A stretch of DNA of 64,000 bases, taken from assembly GCA_947479085.1 (NCBI GenBank), contig CANJYB010000001.1, positions 124,001-188,000 on the forward strand, given 5' to 3'. This document shows, piece by piece, positions 7,022-54,598 of the stretch. Under the pieces are notes generated by a model, which saw only the letters and a program-made list of their open reading frames with translations, did no database searches and was not told the DNA's origin. The number at the start of each line of letters is the position of its first letter. The stretch's first letter is position 1. The position numbers and the translations under genes are program-made. This stretch comes from Bacteroidota bacterium. Lineage in GTDB: Bacteria; Bacteroidota; Bacteroidia; 2-12-FULL-35-15.

Positions 7022-7615
7022 ATGTTTACACCAACACCAAATAGCAGTAAAATCAATAGTAACAGCATTGCAAAGGCAATTGTTGTTACTTCATTATTGC
7101 TTGTTGTTCCATCAAAAAAGATAATTTGCTTACAACATATATGTAATAGTGAACAACATATATGTAGTGCAGAAGTAAGTAAATGTAGTAGTGAACAACA
7201 TATATGTAGTGCAGAAGTAAATAAATGTAGTAGTGAACAACATATATGTAGTGCAGAAGTAAGTAAATGTAGTAGTGAACAACATATATGTAGTGCAGAA
7301 GTAAGTAAATGTAGTAGTGAACAACATATATGTAGTGCAGAAGTAAGTATATGTAGTAGTGAACAACAAATATGTAGTGCAGAAGTAAGTATATGTAGTA
7401 GTGAACAACATATATGTAGTGCAGAAGAACATATTTGTAGTAATGAAATAGAAAAAAATAGTAAACGGGAGAGTATAATTAATAAAAACAGAGTAACAAT
7501 TTTTTCATTTTTAAAAACAGGAAAAGCGTTAAACAGGGATACTATATATAATGGTATCAGTTTTAAAAATGAAATAGTGAAACCAAAATTTAATTTGCCA
7601 CTGCCGGATGTTTAG
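7022..7615 (+). CDS. Heptad-repeat small protein with N-terminal hydrophobic segment (cassette 1, gene A)
   Basis: From the ATG at 7022 the protein is 197 aa. It starts MFTPTPNSSKINSN, has a hydrophobic segment (AIVVTSLLLVV) that could anchor or export it, then 15 heptapeptide repeats alternating CSSEQHI and CSAEVSK (about residues 41-145), then a short basic tail. Every heptad starts with Cys. Its counterpart at 50489 has the same plan: NSSKI near the start, a hydrophobic segment and heptads (LAQPCAI). It lies upstream of the fibronectin-like gene in both cassettes. No family recognised; the repeat may be selected at the DNA or the protein level. Confidence 0.6.
   Translation: MFTPTPNSSKINSNSIAKAIVVTSLLLVVPSKKIICLQHICNSEQHICSAEVSKCSSEQHICSAEVNKCSSEQHICSAEVSKCSSEQHICSAEVSKCSSEQHICSAEVSICSSEQQICSAEVSICSSEQHICSAEEHICSNEIEKNSKRESIINKNRVTIFSFLKTGKALNRDTIYNGISFKNEIVKPKFNLPLPDV
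7142..7456. repeat. 21-bp tandem repeat array, 15 units (42-bp higher-order period)
   Basis: Fifteen consecutive 21-base units beginning TGTAG or TGTAA. Two unit types alternate, giving a 42-bp higher-order repeat. The ACATATATGT dyad recurs at the junction of units. The array stays in frame throughout (315 bases) and encodes Cys-led heptads. The opposite strand is also open across it, a by-product of the 3n period. Confidence 0.95.
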
Positions 7616-8030: not shown

Positions 8031-8792
8031 ATGAAAAAAACAGTTATATCCGTGGGAACTACTGCGGGAAAAAGACAGTTGAGGATACTGAAAAATAATC
8101 CTTTTAATCAATTATTCACTACCGAAATGGGCATCATCGTGTTGCTGGCCAATGTTACCATAACCAAAGGTAAACTCGGATTCTCGGTAACGGAGAGAGA
8201 CGGAGATTTTATCCGCAAAGCACTGGGCATACATGCAGCTATATTTGCTAATGTAGGCGGGTATTATTCGCCACCATTTGGCGCACTTGCTGCTTTGGCT
8301 ACTGCTATCAGCACTTTGCAGGATACCATTATTGATGTGGAAGCTGCAGTGTATGGTGCAGAAGCAGCCAAGGCAGATGCAAAACGGGATGTGATGAGGC
8401 TGCTGAAAAAAGCGCTTAATTACATAAACGACATTGCATTCGACCGACAGGATGTGGCCTCAGAAGTGATAACCGGGGCCCGTATGCTTGTTAATAAGCC
8501 AATTTCGCAGGACAAACAGGACTTAAAAGCAGTGTTGGGTCCCGGAACAGGCGTGGTAAGGCTGTTTGCAAAGGCAGTGAAATATCTTGCAAAATATCAG
8601 AAAGCTACGTATGAGTGGCAGTTCAGTATTGATCAAGGTAAAACATGGGAAAACATACCTTTTACACATAAATCAAAAACTACAGTAACAGGTATGCTTC
8701 CGGGTATAGAAACATGGTTCCGCAAACGCGACTTTTCTGAAAAAACAGGAATGAGCGCATGGAGTGATTATGTAAGTATTTATCCGTTGTAA
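8031..8792 (+). CDS. Helical plus fibronectin-III-like protein (cassette 1, gene B)
   Basis: A 253-aa protein. Residues about 84-138 form Ala-rich helices; the C-terminal ~65 residues (WQFSID at 196-201, GKTWEN, TWFRKR, AWSDYVSIYPL) look like a single fibronectin-III-like sandwich. No signal peptide is evident. It is clearly homologous to the 50935-51702 protein: KGKLGF, GGYYS, a helix ending YIN, a VITGA/IITGA motif, WQFSID, TWEN and FRKR are shared in order. The plan also matches 37547-38173. It resembles small Bacteroidota proteins annotated as fibronectin type III domain-containing; no function is known to me. Flanked by genes A and C of the cassette. Confidence 0.75.
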   Translation: MKKTVISVGTTAGKRQLRILKNNPFNQLFTTEMGIIVLLANVTITKGKLGFSVTERDGDFIRKALGIHAAIFANVGGYYSPPFGALAALATAISTLQDTIIDVEAAVYGAEAAKADAKRDVMRLLKKALNYINDIAFDRQDVASEVITGARMLVNKPISQDKQDLKAVLGPGTGVVRLFAKAVKYLAKYQKATYEWQFSIDQGKTWENIPFTHKSKTTVTGMLPGIETWFRKRDFSEKTGMSAWSDYVSIYPL

Positions 8793-9046: not shown

Positions 9047-9553
9047 ATGAAAACCATTACACAACAATTATCAACCTTATTACCGATAGGTAAACTGGTA
9101 AATAACGTCATCAACTTTTTCAGAAAAAAAACAGAAACAGTTCTGGAAGAAAAGCCGGTTAAAAAAGTTCAGGGAGCAAATTTTTATGAACGGCTGCCCG
9201 ACAAGGAATTGGTGCGATATGCCGAAAGCATTGTAGACCGTATGTTTGAAAGCGAAGCGTTTCCGCAGGAACAAATTCCGGTGCTGTATCTTTCTTCGAA
9301 ACTAAAAGAAATGAAACATAGTTTGTACGAAAAGGAAATGCGTTTTGATATGATAACCTATAAAGTAAAACGAAAAGAACTTATACGGCAACTAAACGAA
9401 GTAGCTTTGGCAGTAAAACGAAGAGCAGCAAATCCCCCAAGGGCGGGACTTCGCAAAAGCTCTGCAACTAATCCCGAAGGAGTCGGTGCTTCGCGACCAA
9501 TCAGGGACGAGATTTTTATTAATGCAGGGTTTAAGGTGCAAGGGTGGAGATGA
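9047..9553 (+). CDS. MKTITQQLS-family protein (cassette 1, gene C)
   Basis: A 168-aa soluble, basic, helical protein starting MKTITQQLSTLLPIGKLVN. Its paralogue at 52063 begins MKTITQQLSTFLPFGELVN, and the central helix (YAESIVDRM / FAEGIIDRI) is also conserved. The C-terminal part (about residues 128-151, from AANPPRAGLRK to GVGASRP) is encoded by an inserted TCCCGAAGGAGTCGG-type palindromic repeat; beyond it the ancestral-looking tail INAGFKVQGW resumes, matching VNAGFY in the cassette-2 DNA. I know no function. The repeat insertion kept the frame, suggesting the end is tolerant or the gene still used. Confidence 0.65.
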   Translation: MKTITQQLSTLLPIGKLVNNVINFFRKKTETVLEEKPVKKVQGANFYERLPDKELVRYAESIVDRMFESEAFPQEQIPVLYLSSKLKEMKHSLYEKEMRFDMITYKVKRKELIRQLNEVALAVKRRAANPPRAGLRKSSATNPEGVGASRPIRDEIFINAGFKVQGWR

Positions 9554-10142: not shown

Positions 10143-10192
10143 ATTTTACTCTATTTATGCGCCACAGACTTTAATATTTCAAAATTATATTG

Positions 10193-10380
10193 CTATTCAC
10201 AGAATAGGAATTACTATTCACAGAATAGTAACAACTATTCACCAATTAGTAGTTACTATTCACCAAACAGTAACAACTATTCCACAACAAGTAATTACTA
10301 TTCATGGATAGTAATAGCTATTCCATGAATAGTAACTACTGTTCACCAAATAGTAACTACTATTCATGAACTATTTATTA
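10193..10380. repeat. 21-bp tandem repeat array with hairpin units, 9 units
   Basis: Nine units starting CTATTC (one CTGTTC), each 21 bases except the sixth (10298-10317), which is 20. Most units are quasi-palindromic: CTATTC...GAATAG or ...ATAG can pair, for example CTATTCACAGAATAG. The first five units are open as Tyr-Ser heptads (YSQNSNN, YSPISSY), in the frame of the porP remnant but after its stop and with no start codon. The 20-base unit breaks that frame. Confidence 0.92.
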
Positions 10381-10574: not shown

Positions 10575-12302
10575 ATGCAAAACAGAAATTTCTTACTTCT
10601 ATTCGCATTTTTAGTTCAATTACCTCTTTTTTCTCAAACCACTTACCCGGTAGATTATTTCCAGGCTCCGGTTTCGGGAGATTTATCATTGGTTGGTAAT
10701 TTCGGTGAAATACGCCCAAACCATTTTCATGCAGGTTTTGATATTCGTACCGGAGGACAGGAAGGAGTGCCTGTAAACGCTATAGCAGTTGGGTATGTGT
10801 CGCGCATTAAAATAAGTGCCGCGGGTTACGGCAAAGCATTATATATTACTCATCCGAACGGCTTTACCAGTGTTTATGCCCATCTTAGAAACTACAATAC
10901 AGAAATAGCCGCTTTTGCAAAGAAAGTTCAGTATGCCGAAGAATCATTTGAAATTGATACACTTCTTCCGGCAACTGCATTACCTGTAAAAAAAGGACAA
11001 CAGATAGCCAATTCAGGTAATACGGGTAGTTCTTCCGGTCCTCATCTTCATTTCGAAATAAGAAATACAAAAACGGAAATGCCTCTTAATCCATATCTTT
11101 TTGGCTATAAAGTTCCTGATAATTCCAAACCAAGAATTCAGCAATTGGCGGTAATCCCTGTGGGAAGGACCTCTTCAGTAAATGGGAAACAAGCCATCAA
11201 AAAAATAAGACCCATTTACAGTAATAATAAATACAGTATTGCGGCATCTGATACGATACTTGTAAATGGTGAAATAGGGTTTGGTGTAGAATGTTATGAT
11301 ACCGAAAATGGTTCTACCAATCACAATGGTGTTTTTTCGATTGAATTGCAGGAAGCCGATAAAAGAATTTACTATCATGAACTTGCCACTTTTTCTTTCG
11401 GAAATTCAAGATATGTAAATGCACATATATATTATCCTGAGAAAATAAAAGCAAATGAAGTAATTCAAAAATGTTTTGTTTCAAAAAATGATAAGCTGGA
11501 GATTTATAAAAATGTAATTAGTAATGGGGTTGTAGGTTTTAAGGATGACAGCATTCATATAATGAAATTTATTGTAAAGGATTTTTCAGGAAATGCAACA
11601 GAGATTCAATTGAAAGTGAAGAGTATTTCTAAAACAAAAATAAAAGAGAATAGCATGGCTGCAACCTCTGTTTGTTTCGATTGTTTAAAGGAAAATAAGT
11701 TTGATAATTACGAATTAAAAATGGAAATGCCGGAGAACGCATTATATAATGATATTAATTTTGAGTACACCAAAAAGCTTGACCTGAAAGCTCCCTATGC
11801 TCCTTTGTTTAAAATTATGACAAACGAAATAGCTTTACAAAAAGCATATAAATTAAGTATTAAGGTTGTTAAGCTTTCTGACTCATTGCAAAAAAAAGCA
11901 TGTATTATTTCTATTAATGATAAAAGAAAAGAAACTTACGAGGGTGGAACTTATAAAGAAGGGTGGGTAACAACCCAAACCAAGAACCTTGGGAATTTTA
12001 CCATTGGTATTGATAATACTGCTCCTGTAATTAATCCGGAATTTAAAATTCCGGATAAAAATAACGTTGATTTGAGTAAAACAAAAACCATTGGATTCAC
12101 TGTAACGGATGACTTGTCAGGAGTTAAAACATATAAAGCAACCATTGATGATAAATGGGTGTTGTGCGAATATGATTTGAAAAAAGATTTGTTGTTTTAT
12201 ACTTTTGATGAAAACATAAAACTGGGAGATCATACTTTTAAAATAGAAGTAAGCGATGATAAAAATAATAGATCAACTTTTACTTTTAAATTTAAAAGGT
12301 AA
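10575..12302 (+). CDS. M23 family metallopeptidase (secreted LytM-type)
   Basis: Predicted periplasmic peptidoglycan endopeptidase-like protein. From the ATG at 10575 it starts with a signal peptide (MQNRNFLLLFAFLVQLPLFS then Q). The M23 domain (about 30-175) has the zinc motif H-x-x-x-D in FHAGFDIRTG and the HLHFEIRN motif after SSGP. The C-terminal ~400 residues are beta-rich, with a DDLSGVKTYKATID segment like an Ig-type fold, as in many Bacteroidota M23 proteins. An in-frame ATG at 10503 would put 24 extra residues before the signal and lies upstream of the -7 motif, so 10575 was chosen. Converges with the next gene with only 2 bases between. Confidence 0.9.
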   Translation: MQNRNFLLLFAFLVQLPLFSQTTYPVDYFQAPVSGDLSLVGNFGEIRPNHFHAGFDIRTGGQEGVPVNAIAVGYVSRIKISAAGYGKALYITHPNGFTSVYAHLRNYNTEIAAFAKKVQYAEESFEIDTLLPATALPVKKGQQIANSGNTGSSSGPHLHFEIRNTKTEMPLNPYLFGYKVPDNSKPRIQQLAVIPVGRTSSVNGKQAIKKIRPIYSNNKYSIAASDTILVNGEIGFGVECYDTENGSTNHNGVFSIELQEADKRIYYHELATFSFGNSRYVNAHIYYPEKIKANEVIQKCFVSKNDKLEIYKNVISNGVVGFKDDSIHIMKFIVKDFSGNATEIQLKVKSISKTKIKENSMAATSVCFDCLKENKFDNYELKMEMPENALYNDINFEYTKKLDLKAPYAPLFKIMTNEIALQKAYKLSIKVVKLSDSLQKKACIISINDKRKETYEGGTYKEGWVTTQTKNLGNFTIGIDNTAPVINPEFKIPDKNNVDLSKTKTIGFTVTDDLSGVKTYKATIDDKWVLCEYDLKKDLLFYTFDENIKLGDHTFKIEVSDDKNNRSTFTFKFKR

Positions 12303-37086: not shown

Positions 37087-37546
37087 GATTTAAGTTTTAG
37101 GTAATGGTTTGTTAATACAATATTAAGTATAAAAAATAAAAGAGAACTTTATTTTTCAATACTTTTGTTTTACTTTTGCTATTAGGGGATTCAGGAGAGA
37201 AGTTCCGGTTTTTCTATCTGGTAATTGGGTTATAATAAACGGTTAACCTTTTACTCCAAAAGGACACCAGGAAGAGTAAAAAGGACTCAAGGAAACAGAA
37301 TAAGGAGTCAAGGATGGCTCAAACCAGGTACCTGAAAGACCAAAAGTGCACCGGGAAAGCTTAAAAGGGCGACCTTTTGCCCCAAAAGGGCACAAGGAAG
37401 AGCTAAAAGGGCATCCTGAAACGGTAAAAGGTTAACCGTTTATATAAAAAGGTTGCTTTTTTGGTTTCCCCTTTTGTTTTCAATGGATTTGAGGACAAGC
37501 CCGAGAAAAATAGGGTATCAAAATGACGACCTGGTAAAATAGAAAA
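37087..37546. other. Gene-free stretch holding a 21-bp array
   Basis: 460 bases upstream of the fibronectin-like gene. Contents are the 21-bp array (37258-37467) with its flanking inverted repeat. No other gene or clear promoter was seen. Confidence 0.6.
37235..37467. repeat. 21-bp tandem repeat array, 10 units, with flanking 18-bp inverted repeat
   Basis: Ten 21-base units from 37258, most starting AAAAGG and otherwise variable; several hold a small palindrome (GGTACC, GTGCAC, GGTTAACC). The sequence ATAAACGGTTAACCTTTT (37235-37252) is the exact inverse of 37426-37443 in unit nine. On the minus strand the array is one open stretch of heptads (CPFSSSL, CPFGAKG, RPFKLSR ...), bounded by TAA at both ends and lacking an ATG. 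Confidence 0.9.
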
Positions 37547-38173
37547 ATGCCAAAACGAGTAAAAATAATTACGGATTTCAGAGAGTTTCCTGAAAGTATT
37601 CTTTCGGACACGGTAACTCTTATTATCAATTCCCTGAAAATCAATAAAGATGATTTTACTGAACTTCCGGTGGATGTTGGCACTCTTAAATCACAACTAA
37701 AAAAGTTCAATAAAAAAAGAACCACTATTGCATATCACGGCCAAAGCACAGATACAAGAAAAGCGCGGAAAGCAATGCAAACTTCATTATCGGCTATCGG
37801 CACTTGGATAAATGTTTCTGCCCGAGGAAATGCTTCATTGCTTCATAAAAGCGGATTTCCGTTTCATCAGAAAAGTAAAGCCCAGGGAATTCTGCCCCGA
37901 ACTATCCTGACCTTAACACCCTTAAATGGAAAAGGTAAATTAAAATTTGCTATTTCACGGATCAATATTCAATTTGTCCGGTACGGAATGATGTACACAC
38001 TTGCTGATAACCCGGAGAAAGACCCTTCTAAATGGACTTTTTATTATTGTTCAAAAAAAGATGGCATAACTACCGGTTTGGAAAGCGGAAAAGATTACAA
38101 ATTTGTTTCTTTTGGTATGGGCACCGATAAGAGGTTAGTGTATAGTAATCCTGTTACAATGTCAGCACAGTAA
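37547..38173 (+). CDS. Helical plus fibronectin-III-like protein, solitary member
   Basis: A 208-aa protein with the same general plan as 8031-8792 and 50935-51702: an N-terminal helical part with a long basic helix (TRKARKAMQTSLSAIGTWIN), then ARGNASLLHKSGF, and a C-terminal fibronectin-like part (FVRYGMMYTLADN, TGLESGKDYKFVSFGMG, LVYSNPV). Sequence similarity to the other two is weak and mainly architectural, so shared ancestry is an inference. It also sits next to a 21-bp array (80 bases upstream). No gene A or C accompanies it. No signal peptide. Confidence 0.65.
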   Translation: MPKRVKIITDFREFPESILSDTVTLIINSLKINKDDFTELPVDVGTLKSQLKKFNKKRTTIAYHGQSTDTRKARKAMQTSLSAIGTWINVSARGNASLLHKSGFPFHQKSKAQGILPRTILTLTPLNGKGKLKFAISRINIQFVRYGMMYTLADNPEKDPSKWTFYYCSKKDGITTGLESGKDYKFVSFGMGTDKRLVYSNPVTMSAQ

Positions 38174-50488: not shown

Positions 50489-50788
50489 ATGCAGAGGACA
50501 TCTTTAAATAGTAGTAAAATAAAGGCATACAGGGCAGCAGCAATAATTATTGCTGCTGCTGTTTTTTTTATTTCTTCATTAAAATCATCTATTCGTCTCG
50601 CACAACCATGTGCGATACTCGCACAACCATTTGCAATACTCGCACAACCATGTGCAATACTCGCACAAACATGTGCGATGCGAATAGATGTTTTTTATCA
50701 CTTCAGGCCCGGGATAATAAAAAATGAAGGAAAGGAAAAGGGCTGGTACAGAACATTATTATATAAAATACCGAAACCTTATGAGTAG
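50489..50788 (+). CDS. Heptad-repeat small protein (cassette 2, gene A)
   Basis: A 99-aa protein with the same plan as 7022-7615: MQRTSLNSSKIKAYR, a hydrophobic helix (AAAIIIAAAVFFISSL), four heptads (LAQPCAI, LAQPFAI, LAQPCAI, LAQTCAM), then a basic tail. Shared N-terminal NSSKI and topology suggest homology although the heptads differ. Upstream, TACTTTCG (50438-50445) is a near match to a -7 element. Function unknown; probably membrane-anchored or exported. Confidence 0.55.
   Translation: MQRTSLNSSKIKAYRAAAIIIAAAVFFISSLKSSIRLAQPCAILAQPFAILAQPCAILAQTCAMRIDVFYHFRPGIIKNEGKEKGWYRTLLYKIPKPYE
50587..50689. repeat. 21-bp tandem repeat array, 4 units, with flanking 9-bp inverted repeat
   Basis: Four units (50599-50682) of the type CGCACAACCATGTGCGATAC plus T. 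Each unit is itself a hairpin (CGCACA-ACCA-TGTGCG; weaker in units 2 and 3). The array is bracketed by ATCTATTCG (50587-50595) and its inverse CGAATAGAT (50681-50689). All in frame in gene A. Confidence 0.92.
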
Positions 50789-50934: not shown

Positions 50935-51702
50935 ATGAAAAAGAAATATTTTAATAAAGCGCTGACAAGAGTGGAGCGCAAACGGCTGAACAGGACCAAG
51001 AATACCTTGCAAAAGGCGGAAGCCGGAAATTTTGGTCCATTGATGGTATTATTGGCTTTGACCAGTAGAACAGTGAAAGGTAAGTTGGGCTTTACGATAA
51101 CCACAGCCGATGGCATCTTTTTGTTTAATTCGGAAGCCATATTTAATGCTTTAACGCTGAATACCGGTGGGTATTATTCCACGCCATTCAACCATTTGGC
51201 ATTATTGGGTACCCAAAACGCAGCTTTCGCAAGCGCCATTTCGGATGTGCGACTGAATGTGCTGGGTGGAGAAGGAGCAAAAAAAGCGGCCAAAAAAGCC
51301 CTGAAACTAACGCTGGACAGTGCGCTTGCTTACATTAATGAGCTGGCAAGAACTAATCAGAATAATGCTGTTGAGATTATTACCGGAGCAAAAATGATGG
51401 TAATAGGCGACCATAGTGTGAACAAACAGGATTTTGCGGTGAAGTATGGTGACGCTACAGCAGAAGTAAACCTGACAGCATTGGCCGAAAAAGTGAATGG
51501 CAAATATGTAAAAGCCATATACGACTGGCAGTTCAGCATAGATAACGGAAGAACATGGGAAAACCTGCCATCGACCACCAAGGCAAAAACCATTGCCACT
51601 GGTATGTTAGTAGGTATTGCTACCCTTTTCCGCAAGCGGACCATTACTGTAAAACATGGTACATCGCAATGGTGTGATGCAATACAGATAATTCCGTTGT
51701 AA
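50935..51702 (+). CDS. Helical plus fibronectin-III-like protein (cassette 2, gene B)
   Basis: A 255-aa paralogue of 8031-8792. The N-terminus is basic (MKKKYFNKALTRVERKRLNR), then KGKLGF, GGYYSTPFNHLALL, a helix ending ALAYIN, EIITGAKMM, and the fibronectin-like end WQFSIDNGRTWENLP, TLFRKR, QIIPL. The strongest conservation with the paralogue is in this C-terminal part. No signal peptide. Lies between genes A and C as in cassette 1. Confidence 0.75.
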   Translation: MKKKYFNKALTRVERKRLNRTKNTLQKAEAGNFGPLMVLLALTSRTVKGKLGFTITTADGIFLFNSEAIFNALTLNTGGYYSTPFNHLALLGTQNAAFASAISDVRLNVLGGEGAKKAAKKALKLTLDSALAYINELARTNQNNAVEIITGAKMMVIGDHSVNKQDFAVKYGDATAEVNLTALAEKVNGKYVKAIYDWQFSIDNGRTWENLPSTTKAKTIATGMLVGIATLFRKRTITVKHGTSQWCDAIQIIPL

Positions 51703-52062: not shown

Positions 52063-52458
52063 ATGAAAACCATCACACAACAATTATCAACCTTTTTACC
52101 TTTCGGTGAATTGGTAAACAAGGCAAGGCATTTTTTCCGTTCGTTATGGCAGCCGGAAAAAGCAGCAGAACAAATACAACCTTTACAAATACAGCCTGTA
52201 AAAAGGCAAAGGCCAACAGGACCAAAACGAAATTACAAACAGCTGACAAACCCAAGGCTGATGGAATTTGCTGAAGGCATAATTGACAGGATTTGGCAAA
52301 ACGAGGAGTTTGAAACAGTACAAAAGGAAGTGCTGTACCTTACTGCCTATCTTCGTGCATGCAAAATTTCGCACCGGCAACTACCTCCGGCCATACACCT
52401 TACAGAACAAAAGGAAAACAGGATACAAATTATCAGGCAACTGGATGAAATAGCCTAA
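52063..52458 (+). CDS. MKTITQQLS-family protein (cassette 2, gene C), shortened by a stop
   Basis: A 131-aa paralogue of 9047-9553: MKTITQQLSTFLPFGELVN, a Gln/Lys/Pro-rich linker, and the conserved helix LMEFAEGIIDRIWQNEEFE. The frame stops at QLDEIA-TAA, but the codons after it continue LLKQKAEETNNKGLMVNAGF, aligning with VKRRA...INAGF of the paralogue. So a single nonsense change has removed the last ~22 residues, or readthrough occurs. Function unknown. Confidence 0.65.
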   Translation: MKTITQQLSTFLPFGELVNKARHFFRSLWQPEKAAEQIQPLQIQPVKRQRPTGPKRNYKQLTNPRLMEFAEGIIDRIWQNEEFETVQKEVLYLTAYLRACKISHRQLPPAIHLTEQKENRIQIIRQLDEIA

Positions 52459-53937: not shown

Positions 53938-54026
53938 GGGGTACTACGAATGGCGAGGTACTACGAATTACGAATAAGGGCGAATAACGAAATGCTACGA
54001 ATTACGAATAAGAGCGAATAAAGAAA

Positions 54027-54598
54027 TACTACGAATTACGAATAAAGGCTAATTACGAATTAGGACGAACAAGAATTAAGAAGAATCAGATGTCGGAATT
54101 AAAAAGAACTGATATTATATACCCGGAATTAAGTTTTAAATTGATGGGTATCTTATTCAATGTTCATAATGAAATGGGACATGGTTTTTTGGAAAGATAT
54201 TATCAAAAGGCAATTGCTGCCGAACTTGAAAAAAATAATATTAGTTTTAAAGAACAGGTAAAATTAGATTTGGTGATTGGAGAGAAGATAATCGCTTCCG
54301 GAATTGCAGATTTTATTATTGAAGAGAAAATCATTTTGGAAATAAAACAAGGAAATACATTTTTAAAAACAAATATAGACCAGGTGAATAGTTATCTGAA
54401 AATGTCAAAACTCCAACTTGGAATATTGATTAATTTTACTTCAAGAGGCTTATTGTATAAACGAATTTTAAATATTAAATAAATACTACGAATAACTAAT
54501 AGAAAGGATTAATAATTACAAAAAAGTGCGAGGAATTTCGAATTCGGGAAAATAAATATAGGTATTCGTATTTCGTATTTTATTCGTAATTCGTAGTA
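54027..54598. mobile_element. 20-bp inverted repeats flanking the GxxExxY gene
   Basis: TACTACGAATTACGAATAAA at 54027-54046 is the exact inverse of 54579-54598. Further partial copies lie at 53942-54020 and around 54485. The gene for the GxxExxY protein is the only gene between them. This could be a small mobile cassette or chance placement among ATTCGTAATTCG repeats, which are common in the window. Confidence 0.45.
54090..54482 (+). CDS. GxxExxY protein (PD-(D/E)XK-like fold)
   Basis: A 130-aa protein with the defining motif in GHGFLERYYQKA (G-x-x-E-x-x-Y, about residues 33-39), a V-x-L-D-L-V-I strand, ADFIIEEKIILEIKQ (D...E-x-K nuclease-like core) and TNIDQVNSYLKMSKLQLGIL followed by INF. 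Family members are found in multiple copies in some genomes, often among repeats; function unproven. Flanked by the inverted repeats 54027/54598. Confidence 0.9.
   Translation: MSELKRTDIIYPELSFKLMGILFNVHNEMGHGFLERYYQKAIAAELEKNNISFKEQVKLDLVIGEKIIASGIADFIIEEKIILEIKQGNTFLKTNIDQVNSYLKMSKLQLGILINFTSRGLLYKRILNIK

Follow-up and report, generated by a model that had tools for sequence, protein, structure and literature searches.

21-bp Repeat Arrays Lie 5′ of a Fibronectin-III-like Gene Superfamily in Bacteroidota and May Act as Helically Phased DNA Elements

Results

An Inverted Repeat Encloses a Degenerate 21-bp Array ahead of a 208-aa Gene

The sequence analysed here (the window) is a 64,000-nucleotide stretch of contig CANJYB010000001.1 of a Bacteroidota bacterium (positions 124,001 to 188,000). 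Three genes of one protein superfamily lie in it, each with an array of 21-bp tandem repeats on its 5′ side, and the array at 37.3 kb is set within an exact inverted repeat. The features are as follows (window positions).

7132..7446, plus strand: 21/42-bp array 5′ of the third superfamily member of the window
8031..8792, plus strand: 253-aa superfamily member (208-family profile, E 9e-20; 255-family profile, E 2e-104)
10189..10373, no strand assigned: solo 21-bp array, with no superfamily gene directly 3′
37160..37178, plus strand: two TAnnTTTG boxes (TACTTTTG, 37160-37167 and 37171-37178) upstream of the array, read from the sequence
37235..37254, no strand assigned: left inverted-repeat arm, exact over 20 bp (18-bp core 18/18 in G004, 16/18 in G015)
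about 37237..about 37467, plus strand: degenerate 21-bp tandem array of about 11 units, the last one weak, read by eye
37424..37443, no strand assigned: right inverted-repeat arm, exact over 20 bp (18-bp core 18/18 in G000, G015 and G004)
37547..38173, plus strand: partner gene of the 37.3-kb array, for a 208-aa protein with an N-terminal helix bundle and a C-terminal fibronectin-III-like domain
50587..50689, plus strand: second array, of 21-bp palindromic units (TCGCACAaccaTGTGCGA) within 9-bp arms
50935..51702, plus strand: 255-aa superfamily member, 3′ of the 50.6-kb array (208-family profile, E 9e-13)

A preliminary description of the locus had reported an 18-bp inverted repeat at 37235-37252/37426-37443. 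This repeat proved to be exact, and each arm in fact reaches 20 bp (37235-37254/37424-37443), leaving a spacer of 169 nt. The 321,262 contig bases analysed contain two exact inverted repeats whose arms reach 20 bp or more and are separated by a spacer longer than 40 nt. One is the 37.3-kb pair; the other is an exact 21-bp repeat at 2233-2371 of the window, with 97 nt between its arms. The array matches itself at 0.56 at a distance of 21 and at 0.61 at 42, and TRF scores only part of it.

The 37.3-kb locus is also present in G015 and G004, and the arms bracket the array in all three genomes. The inner 21-bp units of G015 and G004 do not align with those of the window genome, and the three orthologous arrays differ in length; the arms thus outlive the units between them. 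A search of the genome for the arm pattern gave 23 sites at up to three mismatches, its own locus included, as compared with 27 for a control, which is the chance level, and the arms are therefore private to this locus. The gene neighbourhood to the left is kept in G015. Synteny with G015 is lost right after the 208-aa gene and returns about 40 kb later (from 38154 to past the right end of the window; contig 1, 162154-202083).

It had also been proposed that the arms could fold the segment into a large hairpin or allow its inversion, and that coding potential on the minus strand was switchable or decaying. The hairpin is possible: the segment folds better than its shuffles both as single-stranded DNA (z -4.1, 0/200 shuffles as good) and as RNA (z -2.8, 3/200 as good), and the arms are kept in the three genomes. 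An invertible segment or coding switch is, in our judgement, hardly credible. The exact 20-bp arms would suit it, and the minus strand is literally open as heptads without a start, as had been described, with 58 codons of minus frame 1 between two TAA stops that both fall inside the arms and no ATG. However, the purine-rich strand of the array has one orientation throughout the three genomes (as judged by eye from a single alignment), none of the 20 neighbouring proteins scanned, some of them without any hit, matched a recombinase family, and the open frame is not conserved, since another minus frame is the open one in the orthologous array of G015, where it runs through the arms. The 53 arrays examined contain 70 open frames where 54 would be expected, and no fully open frame exists in five of the 18 remaining core arrays; with an excess this weak, coding heptads were rejected as a candidate.

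Period 21 Predominates among the Arrays of the Contig

The 50.6-kb array (TRF 50597-50676, period 21, 3.8 copies) is likewise surrounded by the 9-bp inverted repeat previously noted for it; the arms, ATCTATTCG and CGAATAGAT at 50587-50595 and 50681-50689, lie within a longer 48-nt pair that is 75% complementary. Just ahead of the array, at 50534-50570, a perfect 13-bp hairpin followed by a T run resembles a terminator. A tandem array with a period of 34 (17) is found at 53959-54069, flanked by genes for a DUF7935 protein and a PDDEXK_3 nuclease.

In a self-match scan of 321 kb of the contig, period 21 was found at 28 places, weak arrays and some arrays inside reading frames (e.g., L022, L029:19674) being counted, and each other period from 15 to 29 at 0-7. 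Every contig array has its own unit. No Rfam family matched at the arrays, and the plasmid and phage collections gave no match. A comparison of array flanks yielded 22 groups of similar flanks, of which the largest contains the conserved gene starts and several pair pieces within one locus. Arrays at two different places (L031, about 11135-11288, and L032, about 9253-9406) have an edge of about 154 bp in common at 83% and differ in their units.

These comparisons bear on the idea that the locus is a mobile element, a MITE-like unit with an internal minisatellite such as BrickBuilt of Porphyromonas gingivalis, to which it is similar in that inverted repeats bound an array in an intergenic region of a Bacteroidota genome (PMC4596501). 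We consider this reading very improbable, as the arms recur elsewhere only at chance level and, among 20 contig arrays, just two pairs are similar, at their flanks.

The Arrays Lie 5′ of a Gene Superfamily

Within its genus, the 208-aa protein is matched 31 times, in 8 of 36 genomes. A 21-bp array is located 18-334 bp upstream in 27 of the 28 loci with a full-length homolog, and the remaining locus has only 83 bases of contig at that place. At a stricter cut-off, the core subfamily (close homologs of the 208-aa protein) has an upstream array in 18/19 of the loci listed and a downstream array in 0/20. Among the matches listed, distant homologs across the class showed an upstream array in 36/51 and a downstream array in 5/52; the corresponding counts, again among the matches listed, were 14/22 and 6/30 for a 255-aa family, 4/6 and 0/5 for a 310-aa family, and 10/14 and 0/14 for a 303-aa family, or 28/42 upstream for these three families together. 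Ordinary background genes had an upstream array in 11/191 and a downstream array in 8/196 cases. An unrelated secreted T9SS family that lies beside some solo arrays served as a control and, with an upstream array in 4/13, was rejected as a partner. Thus, 21-bp arrays on the 5′ side mark a gene superfamily. The array-linked families comprise proteins of 200-310 aa.

The denominators for the core, distant, 255-, 310- and 303-aa homologs and the background genes took in only loci with at least 200 bp of flank. Gene fragments (L077, L085) and duplicates (L087, L088, L113) were excluded before counting. L112, with masked bases near the gene, was left out of most array tests and kept among the 51 distant homologs, among the 62 arrays of the palindromy test and their mean, and in the palindromy and promoter listings. 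Arrays shorter than 84 or 105 bp were left out of some tests (spacing and open frames, unit comparison, A-tracts and A-T wave, folding).

All six members of array-linked families on the sampled contig of the window genome have an upstream array, and most arrays of this contig lack an adjoining superfamily gene, only 6 of about 20 having one. No upstream array was found, at the cut-off used, in 28 of 111 homologs. Across the class, matches came from 27 of 197 genomes, in 10 of 118 genera. The 11 sampled genomes with the proteins contained 36 arrays in 725 kb, as compared with 2 weak arrays in 347 kb in ten members of the genus without hits; these counts include some arrays inside reading frames and take contig L215 of G002, which is short, repetitive and masked, as zero. 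Without G000 and G015, the source of most of the 36 arrays, there were 7 arrays in 225 kb.

Some individual loci have further features. In L095, a perfect 7-bp array (CCCAGAA) comes after the 21-bp array and immediately precedes the gene. In L070, L071, L081, L082 and L083, a subfamily leader between array and gene is partly conserved (region CGATG...GATTCAC) and has no Rfam match. A match to Flavo-1 RNA (RF01705) lies at L072:1328-1380, close to a 208-family gene.

The 208-aa Protein Combines a Helix Bundle with a Fibronectin-III-like Domain

The structure model of the 208-aa protein (mean pLDDT 87.6, pTM 0.53) has an N-terminal helix bundle and a C-terminal sandwich of seven strands, the sandwich matching fibronectin-III domains (Foldseek E 6e-5). 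The helix bundle alone (pLDDT 84.8) gave no match among solved structures, the best E being 0.75. In Pfam, NCBIfam, PADLOC and PHROGs, no convincing family was found for the protein, and the toxin families of Pfam, NCBIfam and PADLOC gave no hit. On the sampled contigs, its profile detected all four members of the 255-aa family, with E values of 1e-12 to 1e-19 for three of them and of 2e-5 for the fourth, and the 208- and 255-aa families are therefore one superfamily. The 310- and 303-aa families are array-linked, and their kinship with the superfamily is putative. The median pI of the core proteins is 7.7, as compared with 8.2 for the background, so that they are not particularly basic. The named carriers are uncultured Bacteroidetes assemblies.

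Similar small proteins that start with MKTITQQLST come after the 253-aa and 255-aa genes, at 9047-9553 and 52063-52458 of the window. The former has no NCBIfam hit and a weak hit with the 208-family profile (E 0.002), and the latter has no Pfam hit.

The Spacing of 21 bp Is Kept While the Unit Sequence Changes

The best upstream period among 111 homologs was 21 in 75, 22 in 3, 20 in 2 and 14 in 3, with none in 28, so that period 21 accounts for 75 of the 83 upstream arrays. Between neighbouring well-matching units, the spacing was 21 in 207 of 232 cases, 22 in 22 cases (partly from 22-bp arrays) and 20 in 3. A distance of 21 bp corresponds to two turns of B-DNA.

The unit sequence behaves differently from the spacing. 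Protein pairs of at least 60% identity share 11.1 of 21 unit positions on average, as compared with 8.3 for distant pairs (20-35% identity). L080 and L084 are paralogs in one genome, with proteins that are 94% identical and 5′ flanks that are 90% identical over 423 bp. Their units differ throughout the arrays (AACACAGATGGTTTTGCACCA in L080, AACACAGGACACTTTTGCTCC in L084), the unit consensus agreeing at 12 of 21 positions, and the changed blocks compensate each other in length, so that 21 bp is retained. These comparisons show a 21-bp spacing that is maintained and a unit sequence that is replaced in a concerted manner.

The fast, concerted turnover of units between flanks that stay is also what would be expected of a functionless minisatellite, in which a slippage-prone leader acquires a 21-bp period from the copying mechanism and not from selection, and the solo arrays away from genes fit this explanation as well. 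We regard it as unlikely: one period is fixed over many genera, changes of whole blocks are compensated such that 21 bp is kept, and the arrays, frequent on the 5′ side of the genes, are rare on their 3′ side.

A Promoter-like Box Precedes the Array in the Core Subfamily

The two TAnnTTTG boxes upstream of the 37.3-kb array are presumably the -7 promoter element of Bacteroidota. In 14 of the 18 core loci that have sufficient flanking sequence, a box of this kind precedes the array (a manual count by consensus). Over all loci, a box was present in 19/58, against 7.4 expected, and was accompanied by a suitably spaced TTG in 8, against 0.8. On the 3′ side of the genes, the counts were 15/61 against 7.4 for the box and 5 against 1.0 with TTG. 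Since the box is above expectation downstream as well, it is unspecific by itself, and what is informative is its enrichment among the core loci. In the distant subfamilies, there are few boxes upstream of the array, and the arrays lie 150-500 bp from the gene.

Phase variation through changes in repeat length is well known, and the arrays might likewise serve as an expression rheostat: a tandem repeat of variable copy number, placed between the promoter and the start codon, would adjust the gene through the number of its units. The box ahead of the array in 14/18 core loci and the different lengths of the three orthologous arrays would agree with this. Such a rheostat nevertheless leaves the period of 21 unexplained and fits poorly with arrays that stand 150-500 bp from the gene in distant subfamilies, and we consider it quite unlikely.

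The Arrays Are Symmetrical and Fold on Both Strands

In 21 of 62 arrays, the palindromy of the unit exceeded that of permuted columns (p < 0.05). Units thus tend to be dyad-symmetrical, with A and T in different halves. A 21-bp wave is present in A and in T separately and absent in A+T, the pattern to be expected when one half is A-rich and the other T-rich; phased A-tracts at 10.5 bp showed no enrichment. Array ends matched their own opposite ends inversely more than the ends of different arrays (16/58 at a score of at least 9, 3 expected). The left end, however, scored as high against the interior of its own array as end against end (7.97 against 7.57), and end-specific inverted repeats were therefore dropped as a general rule.

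This result agrees in general with the null explanation offered in the preliminary description, that the inverted repeats are incidental products of palindromic units. The explanation fails at 37.3 kb, because the units there are not significantly palindromic (p 0.26) and the arms outlast them. Symmetry within the arrays is the general feature, and the 37.3-kb arms are a special conserved case.

The arrays folded better than permuted sequences on both strands (t -7.5 and -6.2, 55 arrays), with no strand preference, and for this reason we lean towards a DNA site array rather than a transcribed leader element. Among the non-standard cells of the stems, A-C numbered 80 and G-U 37 (array by array, 12 versus 5, not significant). 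Hairpins of a sense RNA, another candidate, would predict an excess of G-U, and they were rejected, the observed direction being the opposite.

A related proposal is that the transcribed repeats form a protein-binding RNA, as in type III toxin-antitoxin loci, with which the core loci share the order of promoter, tandem repeats and a gene of 200 aa (by the criteria in PMC8860590). We likewise consider this quite unlikely. The protein combines a fibronectin-III domain with a helix bundle and is not a ToxN-type RNase, folding shows no preference for the sense strand, the ratio of A-C to G-U (80 versus 37) runs against the expectation for a sense RNA, and the unit sequence is not kept even between proteins that are 94% identical.

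Discussion

Taken together, a free unit sequence at a fixed 21-base spacing points to a control or recognition element that has not been described. We tentatively favour the reading in which the array serves as the cis-acting element of a conserved module of promoter, array and gene, with its dyads two helical turns apart. All dyad sites would then lie on the same face of the DNA, and a dimeric DNA-binding protein, either the encoded protein or a shared partner, might load them cooperatively, binding being inferred here from the arrangement of the sites. The loaded protein would set or mark the expression of the gene. Slippage and unequal exchange could renew the units while selection keeps their phase. 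At 37.3 kb, the conserved 20-bp arms would hold the array together as a single domain, forming either a cruciform or a leader stem. Since units differ at genes for near-identical proteins, strict sequence recognition by the encoded protein is argued against. Further points against the reading are the 28 of 111 homologs that lack an upstream array, the many contig arrays that have no superfamily gene next to them, the unremarkable pI of the core proteins, the absence of a fold match for the N-terminal domain, and, for the box, its scarcity ahead of the arrays in distant subfamilies and its excess downstream of genes.

A bolder version of this reading, which we hold to be rather unlikely, is that each paralog of an expanding helix-bundle/fibronectin-III superfamily has a private phased-dyad array, rewritten blockwise at an enforced two-turn spacing, as its own label, which would amount to chromosomal self-recognition or orthogonal addressing. 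If so, it would have no described counterpart and would be a new kind of genetic module in Bacteroidota. If the link between arrays and genes holds, a 21-bp spacing without conserved sequence identifies the cis-partner of a large unannotated gene family of Bacteroidota. The link would then also show selection on helical phase alone and give a handle on genes without an assigned function; it could perhaps account for the position of many such genes at the ends of assembled contigs.

The open-access journal literature searched yielded nothing on 21-bp arrays tied to fibronectin-III genes. Among known systems, the iterons of plasmid Rep proteins are about 20-22 bp long and lie upstream of rep. 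The arrays resemble iterons and phased operator arrays in that sites are repeated in tandem at a distance of about two helical turns, ahead of a gene whose product may be the binder. In contrast to iterons, they occur in many copies per genome, no Rep-like fold was detected, and the sites lack a conserved sequence, the units matching at 12/21 between 94%-identical proteins.

In type III toxin-antitoxin systems (ToxIN), a repeat RNA with a conserved pseudoknot core is encoded upstream of the toxin gene, and a terminator separates the repeats from the gene (PMC8860590). The succession of promoter, tandem repeats and gene described there is found here in the core subfamily only (14/18, by consensus). 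Unlike ToxIN, the present loci encode another protein fold, without the ToxN/AbiQ-type endoribonuclease fold, and their 21-bp units drift freely and fold without strand preference.

BrickBuilt, a MITE with a 23-nt minisatellite, has units and terminal repeats common to its copies and makes target duplications (PMC4596501). It is similar to the 37.3-kb locus in its Bacteroidota host, its intergenic position and its tandem units within inverted repeats; it differs in that the units and arms here are private to the locus and a gene accompanies the array. The TAACTGA heptamer forms direct repeats upstream of start codons, in some Bacteroidetes too (PMC4679880). Unlike the arrays here, the heptamer has one fixed sequence and no tie to one protein superfamily. 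The tandem repeats of Borgs, which are archaeal extrachromosomal elements, differ from the present arrays in having perfect units of varying length and in lying about half inside ORFs (PMC9879509). The arrays described here resemble Borg repeats in being many, locus-private, fast-turning and scattered over the genome.
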